Positions 40,785-51,733 of a stretch of DNA of 64,000 bases are shown in pieces. Every line of letters starts with the position of its first letter. Position 1 is the first letter of the stretch. A model generated the notes under the pieces. That model was not told where the DNA came from. It saw only the letters and a list, made by a program, of their open reading frames with translations, and ran no database searches. The position numbers and the translations under genes are program-made. This stretch comes from Moorella thermoacetica (GTDB taxonomy: Bacteria > Bacillota > DSM-521 > Neomoorellales > Neomoorellaceae). The stretch lies in the NCBI RefSeq assembly GCF_001267405.1, contig NZ_CP012369.1, positions 1,824,001 to 1,888,000 of the forward strand, in the 5' to 3' direction.

Positions 40785-41471
40785 TCAAAGGTTTCTCGTC
40801 ATATTCTCCCTGGAACTAGCCGGCCTGGCAGCAGTTAGCTCAATGCTGCTGCGCGGGCAAACCTCCAGGCAGGCGAAGCAAAAAAGGCAGTAACGGGGCA
40901 GTATGCGGTAGCTTTTTCCCGGGGCTTCATTGGTAGCGATGGCCCCCGCCGGGCATACCCGCCGGCAGCGGCCGCAGGCCAGGCAGCGATCCGGGTTAAT
41001 ATGGAATCTCCAGCGGCTGACGCCTGCTGGCAAGCTAAAGAGTACACCAAAGGGACAAAGGTAACGATGCCAGGCAGCCCCGGTGAAAAAGAGGGTGGTC
41101 AAAATGGCGAAGGGGGCAAGGAGCACAATGAGGTTTATTTTGATAATACCCCGCAGCGTCATAAAGAAAACAAGGAGGAAAAGGATAAAAATTACAGCCC
41201 GCAACCACGGGCTCTTGCCTACAGGTGGTATGTCTCTGGCCAACCGCCGGGCCTTTTTACTCACCAGCCAGTTGACGGGGCGCAAAAGGGTATTAAGGGG
41301 GCAGAGCCAGCCGCAGTAGAGGCGCCCCCAAAACGGAGTTATGAGCAGGAAAGTCATCATGATCAGCATCCAGAGCTTGTTTTTCCCGCTTATTAGCAGG
41401 TAAACGAACAACAGAAACGCGAGGATTTGCACCCCCAGGCGCCAGTGCTGGAGTGAATGCTTCCGTTTCAT
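40785..41471 (-). CDS. NapH/NosR-like membrane 4Fe-4S protein
   Basis: The 228-residue protein has about four membrane segments with CxxxCP motifs at the membrane face (LYCGWLCPLNT and RYLCPFGVLFS). Two ferredoxin clusters follow on the C-terminal side (CLACGRCRRVCP and CLFCFACLEVCP). Members pass electrons from quinols or ferredoxin across or along the membrane. It is the first gene of an operon with a TetR regulator and an efflux system, an odd combination that may tie redox state to export. The ATG follows GAGGAGGGCGGCG. Confidence 0.85.
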   Translation of the reverse strand: MKRKHSLQHWRLGVQILAFLLFVYLLISGKNKLWMLIMMTFLLITPFWGRLYCGWLCPLNTLLRPVNWLVSKKARRLARDIPPVGKSPWLRAVIFILFLLVFFMTLRGIIKINLIVLLAPFAILTTLFFTGAAWHRYLCPFGVLFSLPAGVSRWRFHINPDRCLACGRCRRVCPAGAIATNEAPGKSYRILPRYCLFCFACLEVCPRSSIELTAARPASSRENMTRNL

Positions 41472-41736: not shown

Positions 41737-42816
41737 TTGGCATATGATCTAAAAGAGCAGCAAATCACCATGAGAAGGGAAAACCGCTCCATGAAACTCC
41801 CCGGTAATTGTTTAACAACGGCCATGGGTATTCTTCCCCATGTCGATCCGGATACAGCCTTGAGACTGGCCCTGTCCCTGGATATACCCTTCTGGCCGCA
41901 ACTACCCAGACTGAGCTTTTATGAAGATATGTATGCCCAGGTATCAGAGCACCTACCCGGCATTAAACTGGATTTTAACGCGCAGGTTATCCGCTTCAAT
42001 ATAAAAGACTTTTACGAAGAACTTCCTGCTTATATCGAGAACTGGGAAGATCCGGATTACTTTCGCCTCTCACCCAGGTACGCCAGGGTTTACCGGCGTT
42101 TTTTGGCGGAAGATTTAGCTCACTATCCCGCCATTCGCGGCCAGTCAATCGGCCCCGTTAGCTTTGGTCTCAAAATAGTTGACGAAAAACAGGCGCCGAT
42201 CATCTATAACGACGAAGTCAGGGGGTTCCTCTATGATTTTATAACTAAAAAAATCCAGGCCCAGTACCGGGACCTGGTAGCCAAAAACCCCCGGGCTTTT
42301 GTCTGGGTAGATGAACCGGGCCTGGAACTGGTCTTTATGGCCCTTACCGGCTACAGTTCGGAAAGAGCCAGGGAGGATTACCGCCATTTCCTGGCCATGC
42401 TCCCCGGACCTAAAGGGGTACATCTCTGCGGCAATCCCGACTGGTCCTTTTTGCTGGGCCTGGAACTTGACATTATCTCCCTCGATGCCCTGCAGTGGGG
42501 GCACATTTTTACCCGTTACACCGGAGAAGTAAAAGAATTCCTGCAAAGGGGCGGTATTATCTCCTGGGGCATCACCCCCACCCTGACCGAAGAGGTAGAA
42601 AAGGTAACGATTGCAAAGCTGGTAGCCCAATTGGAAAATCTCTGGGATTATTTGCACGGGCAGGGGATTAGCAAAGAAACTATTATAACCCAGGCCTGGC
42701 TGGCGCCGGCCCGCTGCTGCCTGGTAAATGCCGACGGCGCCGCTTCCGTCGAAAAATCCTTCCGGCTGCTCAAAGAAGTTGCCGGGGTAATCAGGAAGAA
42801 ATACGGGTTATTATAA
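41737..42816 (+). CDS. UROD/MetE-superfamily protein (putative zinc methyltransferase-like)
   Basis: The roughly 359-residue protein has the fold pattern of the cobalamin-independent methionine synthase C-terminal domain and uroporphyrinogen decarboxylase. CLTTAMGILPHVDPDTAL lies at the start, VHLCGNPDW (His-x-Cys) after the middle, and AWLAPARCCLVN near the end. The HxC and late Cys fit the zinc site of MetE-like methyltransferases. The substrate is unknown, and in an acetogen a corrinoid or thiol methyl transfer is plausible. The TTG at 41737 follows AAGGGG by five bases. An ATG at 41791 (MKLPGN) is a second option with AAGGG eleven bases upstream. It stands alone with its own terminator. 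Confidence 0.72.
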   Translation: MAYDLKEQQITMRRENRSMKLPGNCLTTAMGILPHVDPDTALRLALSLDIPFWPQLPRLSFYEDMYAQVSEHLPGIKLDFNAQVIRFNIKDFYEELPAYIENWEDPDYFRLSPRYARVYRRFLAEDLAHYPAIRGQSIGPVSFGLKIVDEKQAPIIYNDEVRGFLYDFITKKIQAQYRDLVAKNPRAFVWVDEPGLELVFMALTGYSSERAREDYRHFLAMLPGPKGVHLCGNPDWSFLLGLELDIISLDALQWGHIFTRYTGEVKEFLQRGGIISWGITPTLTEEVEKVTIAKLVAQLENLWDYLHGQGISKETIITQAWLAPARCCLVNADGAASVEKSFRLLKEVAGVIRKKYGLL

Positions 42817-42904: not shown

Positions 42905-44161
42905 TTAACGATGGGATTGTTCCTGGGGCAGGAAACTGTAAGAACTTACCATCAAGGAAATGACCAGCAGGGCCAGGCCAAAGGGCAAAAGGTCGACGGC
43001 CAATTCAAAGATAGTGGGCACGTAGGGCCAGGAGCCGGCAAATACCGGCGCTCCTGCTTTAAATACGCCTACAGCTATGGGGTAATGCCAGCCTTCGACC
43101 TCCATGCCGGGAAGGGAAAGGCTTAAGGGAAACTGGTTAAAAGCCGGGAACATTAACATCAGCCGGTGGGCAAATACGCCGGTAAAAAGCAGGGCGCATC
43201 CCAGCAAGAGGGAACCGGCCGACCGACCGCCTTTTTCGCTGAAGAAGTAAACCATGACCAGGGCCGGCAGGGCGATTTCCACCAGGTAGACCGGGCCATA
43301 ACGCTTGAAAACCAGGCCCAGGGTGCTTAAGGCTTCGGGGCTGCCCCACCACCAGTGGATGAGGAGATCCATGGCTACGAAAAAGAAGTGGACGGCCAGG
43401 GCGCCGGCGATAATCCGGGCCAGGGTATTAAAGGCGCCTGTATACTGGTTAAACCCCTCTTTCCCGACCACCAGGATGGCAATCACCAGCACCAGGGCCG
43501 TCCCGGAAGCCACCGCCACGGCGATGAAATCCGGGGGTAAAATCGCCGTATACCACCAGCCGCGCGAAGCCTGGGTGGCAAAAATCAAGGCCGTGATGGT
43601 GTGAATTAGAATCGCCACCGGGAGCCCCACTATGGCTACCCGCCGGGACCACCTGGCAGCAATGCTTTCTACCTCCTCCTGGGAAAGCTTCCTTGTCCAG
43701 CCGTTGAGAAAACCGCATCCTTCCTTTTTCCAGTCCGGTAAAAGCTGAAAATAAACGCTCAAGAAAGTTAAAACGGTGTAGGCGGAAACAACTATTACGT
43801 CCCAGATTAAAGGCGACCGGAAATTGGGGTGCAGCAGCAAGTTGTAAATCCTGTCTACCCGCCCCAGGTCCGGCAGGATGACTGCCGCCGCAGCCATAAT
43901 GCTGGCAAAGGCGGACAGGGAAGCAATGCGGGTAAAGGGCTTCAACTGCTCAAGATTGAAAAGGTAAACCGAAGAAGAAACGATTAGCCCCCCGGCGGCA
44001 ATCCCCACAAAAAAGGCGAAGGTGGCAATATACAGTCCCCAGCTAAAGGGATTGCGCATACCGGTCACAATCAGGCCGTTTTTAAGCTGGTAGCCCCAGG
44101 TAAATAAACTTACCAGCAAAAGAATCAGGCCCGGGACAAAAGCCATATTTAGTTTCCTCAC
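42905..44161 (-). CDS. NrfD-family membrane anchor/quinone subunit
   Basis: The 418-residue protein has about ten membrane segments and belongs to the NrfD/PsrC group. The start, GLYIATFAFFVGIAAGGLIVSSSVYLF and DLGRVDRIYNLLLHPNFRSPLIWDV are typical. It anchors the Fe-S and molybdenum subunits and exchanges electrons with the quinone pool. The GTG start has GGAGGGAG eight bases upstream. It is the third and last gene of the molybdoenzyme operon. The NarG-like catalytic subunit is paired with NrfD rather than with a NarI-type cytochrome b. Confidence 0.9.
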   Translation of the reverse strand: MRKLNMAFVPGLILLLVSLFTWGYQLKNGLIVTGMRNPFSWGLYIATFAFFVGIAAGGLIVSSSVYLFNLEQLKPFTRIASLSAFASIMAAAAVILPDLGRVDRIYNLLLHPNFRSPLIWDVIVVSAYTVLTFLSVYFQLLPDWKKEGCGFLNGWTRKLSQEEVESIAARWSRRVAIVGLPVAILIHTITALIFATQASRGWWYTAILPPDFIAVAVASGTALVLVIAILVVGKEGFNQYTGAFNTLARIIAGALAVHFFFVAMDLLIHWWWGSPEALSTLGLVFKRYGPVYLVEIALPALVMVYFFSEKGGRSAGSLLLGCALLFTGVFAHRLMLMFPAFNQFPLSLSLPGMEVEGWHYPIAVGVFKAGAPVFAGSWPYVPTIFELAVDLLPFGLALLVISLMVSSYSFLPQEQSHR

Positions 44162-44176: not shown

Positions 44177-44863
44177 TTACTTCCGCGGTCTTGTCGGTGG
44201 CAGGTAATATACCTTGGGCTTTGTTCCCAGCTCTTCCTTCAACCGCAGGGCCTGCCGCTCCCGCACCAGGCGGCTTACTTCCGACCGGGGCTCATCGAGG
44301 TCGCCAAAGAAGCGCGCCCCGGCCGGGCAGGCCTGGACACAAACTGGTAATTCCCCTTTATCGGTATACTGCACGCAGAAAGTACATTTCTCAACAATAC
44401 CTTTGGGACGATCCGGCGTATAAACCAGGCGGCCGTTGCCGTCACGATGCTCGAAAGGATAGCCGTAATCATACCCCGGCATATAACCCGCTTTCGCTTT
44501 GGCCTTTTGCTGGTCCTCCCAGTTGAACTGGCGCACGCCGTAGGGACAGGCGGCCATGCAGTAGCGGCAGCCGATACAGCGCTCATAGTCCACCAGCACC
44601 CGGCCCCGGTCGTCGGTGTAGGTCGCCCCCACCGGGCAGACCTTTTCACAGGGCGCATTTTCACACATCTGACAGGATACGGGTAAGAAATACATCTCCA
44701 CTTCCCCGTTTTGCGCTACGGGAAGCTGGTGTTCTGGACTTCCCGGAGTAAAAACCCGGTTCCACCACATACCCGGCGGCTGGGAGTTGTGCCCTTTGCA
44801 AACCACCGCGCAGGTACGGCAGCCGATGCAGCGGTCCAGGTCGATGACCATTCCCAGTCTCAC
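44177..44863 (-). CDS. Four-cluster Fe-S subunit of a molybdoenzyme (NrfC/DmsB-like)
   Basis: The 228-residue protein shows four cysteine groups: CIGCRTCAVVCKGHN, CQMCENAPCEKVCP, CIGCRYCMAACP and CTFCVQYTDKGELPVCVQACP. They predict four [4Fe-4S] clusters that carry electrons between NrfD and the catalytic subunit. There is no export signal, so it probably crosses the membrane by hitchhiking with the Tat-targeted catalytic protein. The GTG start shares one base with the stop of the catalytic gene, showing tight coupling. Confidence 0.93.
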   Translation of the reverse strand: MRLGMVIDLDRCIGCRTCAVVCKGHNSQPPGMWWNRVFTPGSPEHQLPVAQNGEVEMYFLPVSCQMCENAPCEKVCPVGATYTDDRGRVLVDYERCIGCRYCMAACPYGVRQFNWEDQQKAKAKAGYMPGYDYGYPFEHRDGNGRLVYTPDRPKGIVEKCTFCVQYTDKGELPVCVQACPAGARFFGDLDEPRSEVSRLVRERQALRLKEELGTKPKVYYLPPTRPRK

Positions 44864-47439
44864 TATACCTCACCTGCCTTTCTTACATCGCAGAGGGCCT
44901 CGTTCCAGGCTGTATTGGGGGCCCATATCCCCGGTACGAAGTAGACCTCATGGGTGGGCTTGATAAAAGGATAGGTCAGGGAGTTATAAGAATCACCGTT
45001 AAGATAGCGGCTCCACCAGCCTTGCTCAAAAACGACTATTTTTCTCCCCAGGCCCGGGTCCAGGGCGGCATAACCCCGCACCCGGCCGCGGTCATTGTAA
45101 ACTTCGACCAGGTCGCCTTCTTTAATACCCTTTGCGGCAGCGTCCTGGGGGTTCAAGAAGACCTTCGGCTTATTATCCTGCAGCTCGTTCATCCAGAGGT
45201 TATTGGAATGGGTCGAATGGACCCGGTAAAGGGAATTTCGGGTGATATAGGCAAACTGGTACTTGCCTTTAATTTCAGGATTCAAGGCATACTCGCTATC
45301 CTCAAAGGGCGGCTTGTGCACGGGCAAAGTTTCGCCAAGGGCGATAAAGGCGTCTTCATCTTTGTAAAACTCGATCCTGCCGCTTTTAACAAATTGAGCC
45401 GTAGCTTCAATTGCCGCCGGCCGGCTGACGGGCGGGAAGGGCTTTTTAAACTGTACCTGTTCGTAAAAGGGAATCTGGCGATTTCCCGGCACCTCCGATT
45501 TCAGCCGCACCGGCCCCTTTTTCAGCTGCTCCAGGGTGATCCCGGCCACCGGCGGGCCGCCGGTGGCAAGGAGTAGCTCAACCGCTTTTTCCGCCGCCGT
45601 GTTCTCATCCAGCTCGGGGAAAAAGTGTTTTGCAAACCCGGGGTCGAGCCTCTTAGCCAGTTCCTTGGCCATCCAGAGTTCGGACCTGGCTTCATAAAGA
45701 GGCCTGATAGCCGGCTGCTGCAGCTGCATGTAGGGGTGCAAAGGAGTGGTTACCAGTTCGGTCTTTTCATACCAGGTGGCGGCCGGGAAAACGACATCGC
45801 TGTAACGGCAGCTGGTGGTCAGGGAAAAATCCAGGCCGGCGATGAATTCCAGTTCGCCCTTTATTGCCATCTGCCGCAGGCGGTCGGCCATATTATGCTG
45901 GTCGAAGGGGTTGCCCCAGCCAAAGATCAGGGCTTTGACCCCGTTCTTGGGCCACCTGGCTTTCATACCGGGGGTCGGGCCATGGAGGATATAAAGCCAG
46001 GGAAGCCATCTGGGCGACCCGGGGAACCACCATTCTTTGACATTGAACCGGATCTTGTACTGGCCGGCATAGGTGGAAATACCCGCACCCGGCTTGCCGA
46101 TATTGCCGGTCAGCACCGGCAACAGGGCCAGGGCGCGGCCCTTCAAGTCGCCGTGATACCACTGGTAGTTGCTGGCACCATAGATGACATGGAGCGGTTT
46201 CGTTGTCGCCATCTCCCGGGCCAGGCGGACCACCGTATCCCCGGGAACACCAGTCTCCTGCTCTACATAGGCCGGTGTATAGCTGGCTAAATGTTCTTTT
46301 AACAGCTGGAAGACCGGTTTAACCCTGACCAGCCGGCCATCTTTTAATTCGACTTCAATTTCTCCCTCCAGGATTACATCCGGGGGAAGCTCCAGCTTTT
46401 CCGGGTGCACGGCCAGTAACTTCCCGTTGTAAGCGACAAAGGCCTCCCGGTAGGGCGGTAGTCCGTCCGGTCTGGCCAGGCCCTTAACCTCATCCGCTTT
46501 CAGGCGCCGCCCGTTATCAAGACGAACCAGAAGGGGCATATCGCTGTAGGTTTTGATGAATGCCTCGTCATAGAGCTTTTCTTCAATGATTACCCTGACC
46601 ATCCCCAGGGCAAGGGCCGCATCGCTGCTGGGTTTAAGCTGGACCCATTCGTCGGCCTTGGCGGCCGTCGGGCTGTAGTTGGGGTCAAAAACAACCACCT
46701 TAGTTCCATTATTCCTGGCTTTGATCAGGAAGTCGGCATCAATAAGCCGGGTAACCATGATGTTGGAACCAAAGATGGCTGTATAGCGGGAATTAAGCCA
46801 TTCCAGGGGTTCCAGCTCTTCCGTCTGGACGCCGAAGGTCTGGGGCCAGAACATGGGCAGGTCGCCGTTCTGGTCGTAAGGGTGGATCAGGCTCCACCCC
46901 GCCATCGTAGCCAGGGCAATCCAGGCCCCCTTTTGGACGTGACCGGTCCCGCCGACCTGGAAAATAAAGCCGATGGATTCCGGCCCGTATTTGGCGGCAA
47001 TCTCCTTCAGGCGTTTTGCCGTATAGTCCAGGGCCTCTTCCCAGGAGACCTCCCGGAACTCCCCCGCACCGCGTTCCCCGGTCCGGATTAATGGTTTTTT
47101 TATACGGTCAGGACCGTAGATTAGGTTGATAAAGGAGAGCCCCCGCAGGCATCCCCTGGGCCCATATTCGGGCTCGGGGTAGTCGTTGGACGGTAAAAGG
47201 GCCTTAATCTGCCCATCCACCACCATGGCCCTGATACCACAGGCCAGGGTACAGTTGGGTGAACAGGTGGTGCGCACGTATTTAACTTCTTTTAACGGGG
47301 ACGTATTCTCTGCCCCGGCTTTCGGGATAAAATATCGCGTAGCCCCCGCCGTACCCGCGAGGACGGCCGTCGCCGCCGATGCCTTTAAAAACTGGCGCCG
47401 GCTCAGCTTAAATCCTTGCTTTTCATTTTTATCCTTCAT
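44863..47439 (-). CDS. Exported molybdopterin oxidoreductase with NarG-like active-site segment
   Basis: The 858-residue protein starts with a Tat signal (SRRQFLKASAATAVLAG). The Fe-S group CSPNCTLACG with GCLRG and the four molybdopterin domains of the DMSO reductase family follow. Around the metal ligand it reads YDQNGDLPMFWPQTFGVQTEE, which lines up with NarG YDWYSDLP...PQTWGEQT, so an aspartate (type II) ligand is likely. The substrate (nitrate, chlorate, sulfur oxyanion, selenate or other) cannot be decided by eye. The ATG at 47439 has GGAGGTG 12 bases upstream. No TorD/NarJ chaperone gene is adjacent. Confidence 0.88.
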   Translation of the reverse strand: MKDKNEKQGFKLSRRQFLKASAATAVLAGTAGATRYFIPKAGAENTSPLKEVKYVRTTCSPNCTLACGIRAMVVDGQIKALLPSNDYPEPEYGPRGCLRGLSFINLIYGPDRIKKPLIRTGERGAGEFREVSWEEALDYTAKRLKEIAAKYGPESIGFIFQVGGTGHVQKGAWIALATMAGWSLIHPYDQNGDLPMFWPQTFGVQTEELEPLEWLNSRYTAIFGSNIMVTRLIDADFLIKARNNGTKVVVFDPNYSPTAAKADEWVQLKPSSDAALALGMVRVIIEEKLYDEAFIKTYSDMPLLVRLDNGRRLKADEVKGLARPDGLPPYREAFVAYNGKLLAVHPEKLELPPDVILEGEIEVELKDGRLVRVKPVFQLLKEHLASYTPAYVEQETGVPGDTVVRLAREMATTKPLHVIYGASNYQWYHGDLKGRALALLPVLTGNIGKPGAGISTYAGQYKIRFNVKEWWFPGSPRWLPWLYILHGPTPGMKARWPKNGVKALIFGWGNPFDQHNMADRLRQMAIKGELEFIAGLDFSLTTSCRYSDVVFPAATWYEKTELVTTPLHPYMQLQQPAIRPLYEARSELWMAKELAKRLDPGFAKHFFPELDENTAAEKAVELLLATGGPPVAGITLEQLKKGPVRLKSEVPGNRQIPFYEQVQFKKPFPPVSRPAAIEATAQFVKSGRIEFYKDEDAFIALGETLPVHKPPFEDSEYALNPEIKGKYQFAYITRNSLYRVHSTHSNNLWMNELQDNKPKVFLNPQDAAAKGIKEGDLVEVYNDRGRVRGYAALDPGLGRKIVVFEQGWWSRYLNGDSYNSLTYPFIKPTHEVYFVPGIWAPNTAWNEALCDVRKAGEV

Positions 47440-47661
47440 AACTTTGCTTGTCACCTCCACAGTGCATTCCGGGACCCGCTTCCGGCATCCCATAACGGCA
47501 TTAATATCGCACTTTTCTAAAATAATACCCCGGCCGTTAAAGGTATAACTATGCCCCCAAATAATTGCCTCCCGTAGTATTTCCGGTCATTTATTACCCT
47601 CCCCTGCCTTGTGAAAGTAACGTATTTATACATGTTTTTATAGCAAGTTTCGTGCCAGCAA

Positions 47662-47698
47662 AACAAAAAGCCCCGGAGTGTGTTTTCCGGGGACTTTT
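47662..47698 (-). terminator. Intrinsic terminator after the nitrate-reductase-like gene
   Basis: Arms CCCCGGA (47671-47677) and TCCGGGG (47686-47692) are followed on the minus strand by CTTTTTGTTTT. It separates the 47762-51733 operon from the exported molybdoenzyme operon. The region 47494-47661 otherwise holds only promoter-like AT-rich sequence. Confidence 0.8.
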
Positions 47699-47761: not shown

Positions 47762-50002
47762 TTAGCCACTACAGTTTTCACCCTGGCCTTCCTGCCCCAT
47801 GCTTCCTGCTTCCTGCCTCTCAATACGGCAGGCCCCGGTCTTGGCCAGGGGCTGGCCGGAAAGGGGGTCGACGTTCCGGCCGGTGAGGTGGTTGGCCGCC
47901 TGCTGCCGGCCCCCCTCACCCGGGTCCAGGTCGCCAAAATGGAAGGGGACAAAAACCTCCCCCGGTGCTACCACATCTGTAAGCCTGGCCGGCACCTCAA
48001 TCCAGCCCCGGCGGGAGACCACCCGTACCACCTCGCCCTCAGATATTTTTAAACGTGCCGCATCGTGCGGGTTAATTTCCACATAGGCCCCGGGTACCAG
48101 GGCCTGGAGTTCAGGGATACGCTTGGTCCTGGTACGGGTATGGTAATGCTCAATAATCCGGCCGGTGTTGAGCCAGAAGGGAAATTCTCCGTCAGGTACT
48201 TCCGGCGGCGGTGCATAAGGAACAGCCCAGAGGCGCGCCCTGCCCTCCGGGTGATTAAACTCCCCGTAACCCTGGGCCTCCTCCGCCCGGGTAGGGAAGA
48301 CGCCGTCAGTATAAAGGCGGGGCGTACCCCGGCCGCCCTCCGGGCAGGGCCACTGTACTCCCCCCAAGTGTTCCAGCAGGGCATAATCCACCCCTGTCAT
48401 GTCGTTGGGCCGGCCGCGGGTTAGCTCGCGCAATTCCCGGAAGGCATTCTCTGGCCCCTGCCAGGCAAAGAGGCCCCCTGCACCCAGGTAGCGCGCCACA
48501 CTGCTGACGATGGCCAGGTCGTCCCGCGCCTCTCCTGGCGGGGCCACGGCCCGGCGGACCAGGTTCAGACGCCGTTCCGAGTTGGTAACGACCCCTGTCT
48601 TTTCTCCCCACCCGGCACCGGGCAGGAAGATATCGGCGAAAGCCGCCGTCTCCATAGGATAAAAGATATCCTGGACAATCAAAAAGACCTTCTCCAGCTG
48701 GCGGCGGCTGAAACCCAGATCCGGCAGGGAGACGGCGGGGTTGGTGCCGATGACCCACAGGACTTTTAGCCTGCCGGTATCAATCAGCTCCAGCATACGG
48801 TTGATATCATTGACCCGCCGGGGTAGCCGCTCTTCCGGGATACCCCAATAATCTGCCACCTGGCGGCGATGTTCAGGATTCTCGGGGTTGCGGAAACCGG
48901 GCAAAGAACCGCCGCCGCCAATCTCCCTCATGCTCAGGGCCGAGGCCTGGCCGGTCAGGGAGAAGGGCGCCGACCCCGGCCGGCCGATTTTGCCGGTGAT
49001 GAGGTGCAGGGAGTTGATTAGAGTTACCGCATCAACCGCCTGGCTGGTCTGGTTGACTCCCTGGCAGAAGACAGTCACGGCGCTGGGGGAGCGGCCGAAG
49101 AGACGGGCGGCGGCCACAATATCCGCCGCCGGCACGCCGGTGAGATCGGCCACCCGCTCCGGCGGGAAGGCGGCAGCGGCCCGGGCCAGATCCTCAAAGC
49201 CTGCCGTGGCCCGCCGGATGAAGTCCCGGTCCAGCATGTCTTCCTTAATCAAAATATTAATCAAGCCGTACAGCAGGGGGATGTTGCTGCCGCAACGCAG
49301 GCGCAGGCGGAGGTCGGCCACCCGGGCCGGCAGGGTGAGGCGCGGGTCGGCCACCATGATTCTGGCCCCGTTAAGTTTGCGATTGCGTAAAATCCGCTGC
49401 CAGAGCTGGGGGTGCATCTCCGCCGGGTTGGCCCCGAAGATAAATACCAGCCGGCTCACATCCAGGTCTTCATAGCACCCCGGCGGGGCGTCAACACCAA
49501 AGGAGCGGGTATAGCCGCTCACTGTGGAGGCCATGCAGAGGCGGGTATTGGCATCGATATTGGGCGTACCCAGGACGCCTTTAGCCAGCTTGTGGATGGC
49601 GTAGTATTCCTCCAGGGTCAGCTGGCCGCCGTGGTAAATGCCGACGGCTTCCGGCCCGCCGGCTGCCAGGGCTTGCCGGAGACGCTCCGCCGTCTCCTCC
49701 AGGGCTTTTTCCCAGGTCACGGGATGCATTTCCCTACCCCGGCGGCAAAGGGGTACCTTCGCCCGCTCCGGGTGGTGCAGGGTTTTCCACTCATAAAGGC
49801 CCTTGAGGCACAGGTGGCCCTTATTTACCGCCGCCTCGGTATCGGCTTTGACAGCAACCGCCCGGTCGTCTTTAATCCCCAGGTAAAGGCCGCAACCGGT
49901 ACCGCAATAACCGCAGGTAGTGGCCACCCAGCGATCCACGGCAGTCCCTTTCCGGTCCTGAAAAAGGCTGACTATACCCTCTTCTAACTCCGCCATTGCC
50001 AC
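47762..50002 (-). CDS. Cytoplasmic nitrate-reductase-type molybdopterin oxidoreductase (NasC/NapA-like)
   Basis: The roughly 746-residue enzyme has the N-terminal [4Fe-4S] group CGYCGTGCGLY...GHLCLKG. The diagnostic NapA/NasC segment NTRLCMASTVSGYTRSFG with DAPPGCYEDLD supplies a cysteine ligand to molybdenum. The C-terminal domain is typical (LNTGRIIEHYHTRT). No Tat signal is present, so it is cytoplasmic, as for assimilatory nitrate reductase or some formate dehydrogenases. The sequence favours nitrate. I place the start at GTG 50002 (GGGGAGGG seven bases upstream). An upstream TTG at 50032 and an ATG at 49996 are alternatives. It follows its sigma-54 activator gene by about 43 bases. Confidence 0.88.
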   Translation of the reverse strand: MAMAELEEGIVSLFQDRKGTAVDRWVATTCGYCGTGCGLYLGIKDDRAVAVKADTEAAVNKGHLCLKGLYEWKTLHHPERAKVPLCRRGREMHPVTWEKALEETAERLRQALAAGGPEAVGIYHGGQLTLEEYYAIHKLAKGVLGTPNIDANTRLCMASTVSGYTRSFGVDAPPGCYEDLDVSRLVFIFGANPAEMHPQLWQRILRNRKLNGARIMVADPRLTLPARVADLRLRLRCGSNIPLLYGLINILIKEDMLDRDFIRRATAGFEDLARAAAAFPPERVADLTGVPAADIVAAARLFGRSPSAVTVFCQGVNQTSQAVDAVTLINSLHLITGKIGRPGSAPFSLTGQASALSMREIGGGGSLPGFRNPENPEHRRQVADYWGIPEERLPRRVNDINRMLELIDTGRLKVLWVIGTNPAVSLPDLGFSRRQLEKVFLIVQDIFYPMETAAFADIFLPGAGWGEKTGVVTNSERRLNLVRRAVAPPGEARDDLAIVSSVARYLGAGGLFAWQGPENAFRELRELTRGRPNDMTGVDYALLEHLGGVQWPCPEGGRGTPRLYTDGVFPTRAEEAQGYGEFNHPEGRARLWAVPYAPPPEVPDGEFPFWLNTGRIIEHYHTRTRTKRIPELQALVPGAYVEINPHDAARLKISEGEVVRVVSRRGWIEVPARLTDVVAPGEVFVPFHFGDLDPGEGGRQQAANHLTGRNVDPLSGQPLAKTGACRIERQEAGSMGQEGQGENCSG

Positions 50003-50044
50003 GCACGATCCCTCCCCTGACTCTCCCGGCAAGGGCCAGACGAT

Positions 50045-51733
50045 CTAATTGATATCATAACGCTTGAGCTTTTGATAAAGGCCGGAGGGGTGAATACCCA
50101 GGAGACGGGCCGCTTCCTGTTTGTTTCCACCAGCGGCCGCGAGGGCCTTTAAGATAACTTCCCTTTCCGCCGTAGCGACAGCACTCTTCAGCTTCAGGCC
50201 ACCCCCGCCACCAATCGTCCTTTGCATGGTGGCCGGGAGATGCTTCAAGGTAATTATTTCTTCCCCCGGATCCAGGAAATTAAAGGCATGCTCCAGGACA
50301 TTTTCCAGCTCCCGGACATTCCCCGGCCAGCTATAGCGGGAAAAAAGCCGCTGTACCTCCGGATCCAGGCCCCGGACCGTCTGGTGGTAGCGTGCATTTA
50401 AACGCCGGATAATGGCCGCCACCAGTATTTCGAGGTCCCCCGGCCGTTCCCTTAAGGGTGGTACCGTCAGGGTAACCACCGCCAGGCGGTAGTAAAGGTC
50501 AAGGCGAAATTTGCCGGCCGCCTCCAGGGCCAGGAGATCCTGGTTGGTGGCAGCAATAATCCTTACATCAACCTTGATGGTCCGGCGTCCCCCGACCCGT
50601 TCAAAGGCCCTTTCCTGCAGGACCCGCAGGAGCTTGGGCTGCATACTGAGGGGCAGGTCGCCGACTTCATCCAGGAAGATGGTACCGCCGTCAGCCAGTT
50701 CAAACTTGCCCGGTTTGCCGCCCCGGGCGGCGCCGGTAAAGGCCCCCTCTTCGTAGCCGAAGAGTTCGGCCTCCAGCAGGTTTTCCGGGATGGCGGCACA
50801 GTTGATCTTGATCAATGGTTCATTCCGGCGAGGACTGGCCCGGTGGATGGCCTGGGCCAGCAGTTCCTTCCCGGTACCGCTCTCGCCGGTAATCAAAACG
50901 TTAGCCTCGCCGCGGGCTACCCGGGCCGCCATTTTTTTTAGCCGGACCATAGCCGGGCTCACCCCCAGGATGCCCTGCCAGGCGTCCTGGTCGCCCTGGA
51001 TTGACTGGAGTTCCTGCTGGTAGAAAAGAACCTTGCCCTCCAGGACCTGCAGGCGGCGGGCGAGGTCGCTGAAACCGGCGGCTGCCAGGTCCTCGAGATC
51101 CAGGGCCTTACCGACTCCTCCCAGGAGATGCCCGGCCCCATCTTTAACCGGCACTTCCGATAATAGCAATTTTTTGCCCCGGAAGGCCACTTCCCGGCCG
51201 GCTACCGCCATCCCCGAAGATAGGACCTCCGGCAAGGAGGTAAAGGGCAAAATATCCTTTACTTCCCGGCCGATCAGGGCACCGGCCTTTGCACCCAGGA
51301 GGCTGGCATATAAATGGTTAATGGCGACCACCACCCCCCGGCCGTCGACGACCACCAGGTATAGAGGAAAATCGTCAAGGAGGGAGGCGTAGAGTTCGTT
51401 AAGGGCTTTGAGGGAATTCGTCTCAGGCTGCTCGTCACTGAAAAGAAGGACGACACCTCCCCCATCGTCGGGGAAATAATCGACCCGATAGATTCTACTG
51501 CCGGCGGTAAAGCTGGTCCCAAGGAGAGGGCCCTTACGGGTCAGGACCTCGGCCAGGCGGGTCTCAGGAAAGACTTCCGTCAGGCGGCGGCCCCTGAGAT
51601 CACAGCCGTCCAATCCCAGGATGGCGGTCGCCAGGGAATTGGCCACCTTAATAAGGCCCCCGGCGTCAACATAAATCATCCCCTGCCGCCGGGCGGCGAG
51701 AATTGCCCCCCAGAAGTCCAGATGCTCCTTCAC
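50045..51733 (-). CDS. PAS-domain sigma-54-dependent transcriptional activator
   Basis: The 562-residue protein has two PAS-like regions (about residues 12-95 and 110-215, the second with YLVVVDGRGVVVAINHLYASLLG). A short coiled coil is followed by the AAA+ domain (GESGTGKELLAQAIH, GAFTGA in the EEGAFTGAARG loop, and FLDEVGDLP). The C-terminal Fis HTH is QEAARLLGIHPSGLYQKLKRY. PAS domains sense redox, oxygen or small ligands. It is co-oriented with and directly upstream of the nitrate-reductase-like gene. No -24/-12 promoter was seen in front of either the operon or the adjacent ADH gene, so its target is not clear. Confidence 0.9.
   Translation of the reverse strand: MKEHLDFWGAILAARRQGMIYVDAGGLIKVANSLATAILGLDGCDLRGRRLTEVFPETRLAEVLTRKGPLLGTSFTAGSRIYRVDYFPDDGGGVVLLFSDEQPETNSLKALNELYASLLDDFPLYLVVVDGRGVVVAINHLYASLLGAKAGALIGREVKDILPFTSLPEVLSSGMAVAGREVAFRGKKLLLSEVPVKDGAGHLLGGVGKALDLEDLAAAGFSDLARRLQVLEGKVLFYQQELQSIQGDQDAWQGILGVSPAMVRLKKMAARVARGEANVLITGESGTGKELLAQAIHRASPRRNEPLIKINCAAIPENLLEAELFGYEEGAFTGAARGGKPGKFELADGGTIFLDEVGDLPLSMQPKLLRVLQERAFERVGGRRTIKVDVRIIAATNQDLLALEAAGKFRLDLYYRLAVVTLTVPPLRERPGDLEILVAAIIRRLNARYHQTVRGLDPEVQRLFSRYSWPGNVRELENVLEHAFNFLDPGEEIITLKHLPATMQRTIGGGGGLKLKSAVATAEREVILKALAAAGGNKQEAARLLGIHPSGLYQKLKRYDIN

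Follow-up and report, generated by a model that had tools for sequence, protein, structure and literature searches.

A NrfD-anchored molybdoenzyme clade shared by Moorella thermoacetica and gut bacteria, sister to the classical type II enzymes and possibly reducing nitrate

The stretch of DNA analysed here, called the window, comprises 64,000 bases of Moorella thermoacetica (positions 1,824,001 to 1,888,000 of NZ_CP012369.1) and is part of a single contig of 2,527,564 bases. Open reading frame and profile analysis located three closely spaced minus-strand genes in it, coding for a catalytic molybdoenzyme, a four-[4Fe-4S] protein and an NrfD anchor, and both the open frames and the profile scores of this trio far exceed chance. 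The catalytic subunit belongs to a clade that is the deep sister of the whole classical type II group of molybdoenzymes together with a chlorate-reductase-like group linked to chlorite dismutase (Cld), and is not nested in type II. To judge from motifs and gene context, the trio is probably an exported respiratory oxyanion reductase in general, and nitrate is the leading candidate for its physiological substrate, an assignment that we regard as evenly balanced. The sequence-only reading of the window had suspected an unrecognised respiratory reductase of a thermophilic acetogen. A respiratory reductase in an acetogen of the genus Moorella remains the probable interpretation, whereas the word "unrecognised" had to be given up. 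The catalytic gene is most likely the orthologue of Moth_1908, since it encodes the only protein of the genome near the type II model. In a 2018 review (PMC6299022) Moth_1908 is listed as related to AF0176, which in Archaeoglobus is the putative perchlorate reductase, and in 2025 the "perchlorate reductase of M. thermoacetica" was employed as a query (PMC12769810). Earlier papers treat the gene as a putative pNar or perchlorate reductase. New are the position of the clade as a whole, its extension to gut bacteria, a sigma-54 circuit and a linkage to nitrate sensors, none of which was met in a limited literature search.

The catalytic frame spans 44863-47493 (876 aa), and an in-frame ATG at 47439 gives a protein of 858 aa. 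It matches the Pfam families Molybdopterin, Molydop_binding, Molybdop_Fe4S4 and TAT_signal, each above the gathering score, and its twin-arginine motif SRRQFLKA agrees with the twin-arginine translocation (Tat) that had been predicted from the letters alone. The segment YDQNGDLP..PQTFGVQTEE (YDQNGDLPMFWPQTFGVQTEE) was aligned residue by residue with NarG and PcrA by HMMER, which bears out the earlier claim of a NarG-like enzyme with an aspartate ligand: Asp193 aligns with the Asp of NarG and PcrA, is invariant in 12 orthologues and is present in all 28 clade rows of the larger tree described below. Before Asp193 the clade reads YDxNGD with small variations, in contrast to YDWY, FDWY or YNWY in the Nar, pNar, Pcr and Cld-linked rows. 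The FS0 motif has the form Cys-x3-Cys-x3-Cys in 25 of the 28 rows (the exceptions are L063 and L087, with Asp first, and L066, with Asp second), whereas the Nar, pNar, Pcr, Clr and Ebd-like rows have His as its first residue. The position of PcrA Trp461, located via the aligned W461E PcrA entry, is occupied by Tyr in 27 of 28 clade rows and by His in L087; the other groups have Glu (Nar and haloarchaeal pNar), Trp (PcrA-like rows) or Tyr (Cld-linked group).

The protein stays below the curated cut-off of every NCBIfam family listed, and even the best model does not reach half of its cut-off. It scores 468.9 bits with TIGR03479, the type II dimethyl sulfoxide (DMSO) reductase family (cut-off 984.75; haloarchaeal pNarG rows reach 1241-1418), 269.8 with the NarG model (1084), 295 with the DmsA model TIGR02166 (777.7) and 237.6 with the PhsA model (694). 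Hence, the placement has to come from trees. Among solved structures the best match by HMMER is PcrA (4ydd, 350 bits). An AlphaFold model (pLDDT 81, pTM 0.82, 26 sequences) likewise has PcrA as its nearest solved fold (Foldseek E 2.7e-63, TM 0.78; Z 38-40), followed by EbdA, Nxr and NarG; the VIA-align list is a re-examination of Foldseek's own matches, so that absences from it carry no meaning.

For the trees we used a selection of orthologues, 28 clade rows in a quick tree of 66 rows and 13 in a careful tree of 33 rows. In the quick tree the clade rows stand together (support 98) opposite the classical type II enzymes plus the Cld-linked group (99), and the union has full support (100). The careful tree returned the same arrangement for the clade (100/99), its sister (100/98) and the union of both (100/99), with the DmsA and PsrA-like rows outside this union. 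The approximately unbiased (AU) test rejected joining the clade with PcrA (p-AU 2.6e-40), NarG/pNarG (1e-51), Clr/Ser (1e-5), the Cld-linked group (0.0052) or the haloarchaeal DmsA-like row (0.0067, on long branches); the groups compared are known functional groups chosen after the first tree was in view. Four sequences (L148, L151, L152, L164) were taken as PcrA by their motif match to the PcrA sequence and their single clade, not by name, and long branches make the exact placement of the haloarchaeal DmsA-like and Novosphingobium rows unsure. A firm position among the polysulfide/thiosulfate or DMSO reductases, which would have overturned the sequence-only reading, was looked for and not found: the clade was placed on the Asp side, next to classical type II as its sister. 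A thiosulfate/polysulfide reductase identity was dropped, with the PsrA-like rows branching outside and the PhsA score below cut-off, and a DMSO reductase identity is rejected on tree, score and the genuine DmsA elsewhere in the genome.

The Cld-linked group, represented by Alisedimentitalea and a Rhodocyclaceae genome (35-36% identity), shares Tyr at position 461 with the clade, but it branches with classical type II and has a Nar-like beta subunit and cytochrome c, without NrfD. A Cld-family gene directly adjoins both copies, and the group is probably the group 3 chlorate reductase named in PMC9751292. In these two loci (L133 6672-10085, on a predicted conjugative plasmid of Alisedimentitalea scapharcae, and L198 7402-10880) the Cld-family gene lies directly upstream of the type II-like molybdoenzyme, and a TorD-like chaperone and cytochrome c are encoded as well. 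Two other genomes of the phylum (L028, L031) encode another type II enzyme (38% identity, His-type FS0, YDWYSD), which falls within the Nar/Pcr/Ebd group. In-frame TAG codons flagged in these two paralogues are merely terminal stop codons.

The catalytic subunit thus stands near type II, while its partners belong to the Dms/Psr/Dsr kind. The electron-transfer subunit was first described as DmsB/NrfC-like, which is roughly right, but ArrB (186 bits), DsrO (181) and TtrB (156) are closer than DmsB (130), all scores being below cut-off; its nearest solved relative is the ArrA partner 6cz7_B. Four complete Cys motifs are found in this protein and in 21 of 22 other clade proteins (three in L087). 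There are three in NarH, haloarchaeal NarH, ClrB and the Cld-linked beta subunit but four in DmsB and in the DmsB-like protein of haloarchaea, and the altered Cys motif typical of a type II beta subunit is accordingly missing from the window protein. The NrfD partner that had been proposed is confirmed by its Pfam score; this anchor has about ten hydrophobic segments, and its nearest solved chains are the NrfD subunits of alternative complex III. Compared to NarGHI and haloarchaeal pNar, which share the Asp ligand and the oxyanion reductase fold with the clade, the trio therefore differs in its Fe-S protein (four full Cys motifs instead of three) and in its anchor (NrfD instead of NarI or a bc complex). 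The combination is less odd than it seems, because the annotated DmsA-type locus of Halomicrobium sp. LC1Hm also has a catalytic subunit, a DsrO-like protein with four full Cys motifs and NrfD in a row, although its enzyme branches outside the clade (29% identity). With partners of the same kind in this haloarchaeal locus, the pairing may be ancestral and not swapped in. A TorD-like chaperone gene follows NrfD in 10 loci (L063-L067, L075, L079, L086, L088, L089; one profile-tested), and none was seen beside the Moorella copy.

A scan of contigs retained 80 loci of 542 relatives, of which 38 (L052-L089, 45-93% identity) represent the clade; the remaining 42 (L090-L131) are molybdoenzymes of more distant kinship. 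In 36 of the 38 clade loci the three genes stand next to one another; L080 stops behind its first gene, and BLAST shows no NrfD in L087. Orthologues at E <= 1e-150 occur in 12 of 61 related genomes, our own included, and in 9 of 11 within the genus. At E <= 1e-110 there is a match in 17 of 299 genomes across the phylum, among which G019 matched only through relatives of 36-38% identity and G129 has an orthologue broken by stops or frameshifts. The hosts range from Moorella to Desulfobacterota and numerous Clostridia of gut or rumen and include Thermanaeromonas, Desulfosporosinus, Paradesulfitobacterium, Desulfotignum, Syntrophobacteraceae, Thermosulfurimonas, a metagenome-assembled genome (MAG) of the Bacteroidales and Sarcina sp. 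DSM 11001; in M. sulfitireducens the trio is present at 86% identity. A scan of viral contigs yielded no relative.

In other lineages, the neighbours of the trio speak for nitrate. Six gut or rumen loci (L070, L071, L073, L074, L082, L084) encode a kinase with an N-terminal GAF domain matching the nitrate sensor NreA. NreA was the best or second-best family in all six kinases tested, with 94-111 bits across almost the entire model, short of the 175 bits required of stand-alone NreA, and the one kinase compared with solved structures matched NreA 4iuh (E 1e-19). The five other gut-type loci (L062, L069, L077, L080, L083) showed no such kinase in the DNA available for them, L077 and L080 being short contigs. 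NarL-family regulators and TatC lie within several of the same gut and rumen loci. Furthermore, in three loci of Peptococcaceae MAGs (L072, L081, L085) the trio stands beside NapG, NapH, an NrfH-like cytochrome and NapA (757 bits in L085, cut-off 904). Apparent molybdenum cofactor genes were also seen clustered around the trio in these three loci. In the rumen-type MAGs G467 and G468 no PF00384 protein besides this enzyme occurs; Sarcina DSM 11001 has two such proteins, G469 three and the window genome nine, counts that are limited by MAG incompleteness.

In Moorella itself, the regulatory context is of another type (Table 1). The order activator, Nap/Nas-like gene and trio is common to the Moorella group members examined, Paradesulfitobacterium, Desulfosporosinus and G130. 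The Nap/Nas-like gene occurs in 13 of 61 related genomes and in all 12 that bear the trio.

Table 1. Features of the trio and its upstream region in the window (all on the minus strand)
Feature	Position	Strand	Remarks
NrfD-type membrane anchor	42905..44161	-	PF03916 171 bits; predicted menaquinol-oxidising subunit
Electron-transfer subunit	44177..44863	-	four complete [4Fe-4S] Cys motifs; ArrB/DsrO/TtrB-like
Catalytic molybdoenzyme subunit	44863..47439	-	predicted Tat export; type II sister lineage; Asp193 predicted Mo ligand
Sigma-54 (-24/-12) promoter match	47642..47657	-	perfect match, TGGCACGAAACTTGCT; upstream of catalytic gene
Terminator-like hairpin	47671..47692	-	between Nap/Nas-like gene and sigma-54 site; pattern match alone, matches of this sort being frequent in shuffled sequence too
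Nap/Nas-like molybdoenzyme	47762..50032	-	without Pfam TAT signal; adjoins the operon and co-occurs with it
PAS-containing sigma-54 activator	50045..51733	-	PF00158 237 bits; likely regulator of the 47642-47657 promoter

The window contains three sigma-54 sites with one mismatch or none, where 0.54 would be expected. Among 15 loci with an upstream activator and/or a Nap/Nas-like gene, 13 have such a site within 700 bases of the catalytic gene, 7 of them perfect (0.03 expected at up to one mismatch), whereas none was found near the catalytic gene in the 31 clade loci without these genes (0.15 expected); the loci were split by activator presence after some sites were already known. The Nap/Nas-like protein itself was difficult to name. 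Its best NCBIfam model is Fdh-alpha (551 bits, cut-off 666), the NapA and NasC models give 433-477 bits, none is above cut-off, and among PDB entries FdhF of the hydrogen-dependent CO2 reductase and Desulfovibrio NapA tie (478 and 479 bits). We set the formate dehydrogenase label aside on the Nap/Nas motif RLCMAS and call the protein Nap/Nas-like with some doubt; it may itself be a nitrate reductase of Moorella.

Two further genes lie downstream of or next to the trio. A NapH/MauN-like polyferredoxin (40785-41471, minus strand) is kept in three related Moorella genomes. A conserved protein of about 350 aa (41737-42816, plus strand) adjoins the trio in Moorella, as does its counterpart in another genome (L190 12794-13831), and resembles by eye a methyltransferase of the UroD/methionine-synthase type; no Pfam match was obtained up to E 10, nor, for the window copy, any match in NCBIfam.

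Gene order, motifs, tree position, the linkage to promoter and regulator and the nitrate-type neighbours in other lineages are direct observations; the electron path, the export of the whole complex, the substrate and the regulation we infer as follows. The proteins would form a membrane-bound complex facing outside, in which menaquinol is oxidised at NrfD and the electrons pass through the four [4Fe-4S] clusters to FS0 of the catalytic subunit and on to the molybdenum bis-pyranopterin guanine dinucleotide held by Asp193. At the Mo centre the oxyanion would lose an oxygen atom, converting nitrate to nitrite, and chlorate and perchlorate may be reduced as a side activity, enzymes of this kind being commonly promiscuous. 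In Moorella, the adjacent PAS activator would switch the operon on from the sigma-54 promoter. Nitrate is favoured because NreA-like sensors, NarL-like regulators and nap genes adjoin the trio in other lineages. DMSO and thiosulfate are less likely, since the genome has its own DmsA (805 aa, TIGR02166 1100 bits, cut-off 778) and a probable thiosulfate enzyme (a PhsA-like protein of 755 aa, 558 bits, cut-off 694). More tentatively, and with somewhat less confidence than for the substrate as such, the clade could add another class of dissimilatory nitrate reductase to the cytoplasmic Nar, the archaeal pNar and Nap. Such an enzyme would be exported, held by an NrfD anchor and equipped with four [4Fe-4S] clusters; it would form the sister branch to the classical Asp-type oxyanion reductases as a whole and, in some Clostridia of rumen and gut, would be the only molybdoenzyme of the genome, controlled by an NreA-like nitrate-sensing kinase. 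It would then be an overlooked nitrate sink of the rumen, competing with methanogenesis for hydrogen, and the oxyanion reductase of Moorella and Carboxydothermus.

Several observations weigh against nitrate. The linkage to the nitrate sensor is confined to one sub-clade (52-57% identity), and the Moorella activator belongs to another type. The Nap/Nas-like neighbour could alone account for nitrate reduction. The FS0 ligands and the Mo-site motif of the clade are unlike those of all Nar-type rows. NrfA (PF02335) is present in only 6 of 14 carriers tested, the three Moorella genomes in this sample lacking it, and was dropped as a partner marker. Moreover, Archaeoglobus with the related AF0174-0176 was reported not to grow on nitrate, yet to reduce perchlorate (PMC8322695).

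A rival reading is a dedicated (per)chlorate reductase, which would convert perchlorate to chlorite outside the cell and leave the chlorite to react away chemically with reduced sulfur compounds, the scheme put forward for Archaeoglobus. AF0174-AF0176 of Archaeoglobus fulgidus (putative perchlorate reductase/pNar), compared here by published description only, are also an exported cluster of catalytic, Fe-S and membrane subunits, differing from the Moorella trio in host and chaperone; genomics and proteomics have tied them to perchlorate reduction (cited in PMC8322695). Besides Moth_1908, relatives from Carboxydothermus, Desulfitobacterium and Desulfosporosinus are listed with AF0176 (PMC6299022), a separate clade of thermophilic perchlorate reductases has been described (PMC6650914), and M. 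glycerini and the trio-bearing M. sulfitireducens reduce perchlorate (PMC9964509). PcrA (4ydd, 5ch7), exported and with an Asp ligand, is the nearest solved relative by sequence and fold, and the clade has Tyr at the Trp461 position instead of the Glu of Nar and haloarchaeal pNar. However, PcrA shares only about 30% identity with the clade and has a His-type FS0, Trp461 and DWYGD; neither a common clade with PcrA, nor Trp461, nor a linked chlorite dismutase is found for the window enzyme. A common clade with PcrA or Clr/Ser was rejected above, and Tyr461 also occurs in the Cld-linked sister group and may therefore be ancestral. A chlorite dismutase family gene (PF06778) was absent from all 17 carrier genomes tested; G325, the only Cld-positive genome among 18 searched, carries the Cld-linked relative instead of the clade enzyme. 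Many carriers are gut or rumen bacteria, for which perchlorate is unlikely as a selective acceptor, and several copies adjoin nitrate-type sensors. We consider a dedicated (per)chlorate function unlikely.

To a similar degree, we doubt that the trio reduces another acceptor (an N-oxide, an S-oxide, selenate or an organic nitro compound) with only incidental oxyanion activity. The YDxNGD motif in place of the type II YDWY(S/C/G)D, the Cys ligand of FS0, the haloarchaeal locus with DsrO-like and NrfD partners and the wide host range of the clade are compatible with it, and a haloarchaeal DmsA with DMSO or trimethylamine N-oxide as substrates is listed with an Asp ligand (PMC10100899). But, a clade with the haloarchaeal DmsA-like row was rejected, if on long branches, the genome possesses its own DmsA, and nitrate-type regulators adjoin the gut copies.

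The carriers are anaerobes with low-potential menaquinone, which, together with nitrate-type regulation and the nap linkage, favours reduction and makes an exported dehydrogenase feeding menaquinone, as in nitrite oxidation or hydroxylation by Nxr and Ebd, very improbable, even if the top structural matches include Nxr and EbdA and type II enzymes operate in both directions (PMC10100899).

Nitrate use by M. thermoacetica has been published (PMC8578096), and the organism is reported to prefer nitrate over CO2 as electron sink, while its genome has no NarG-like protein besides the catalytic subunit discussed here. If the trio indeed reduces nitrate, the nitrate bioenergetics of cytochrome- and quinone-containing acetogens becomes genetically testable. 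The family is widespread in rumen and gut Clostridia and left unnamed by curated models; on the same premise, nitrate (and chlorate) reduction would be under-counted there. As sister of the classical type II enzymes, the clade furthermore provides an outgroup for reading the origin of nitrate, chlorate and perchlorate specificity.

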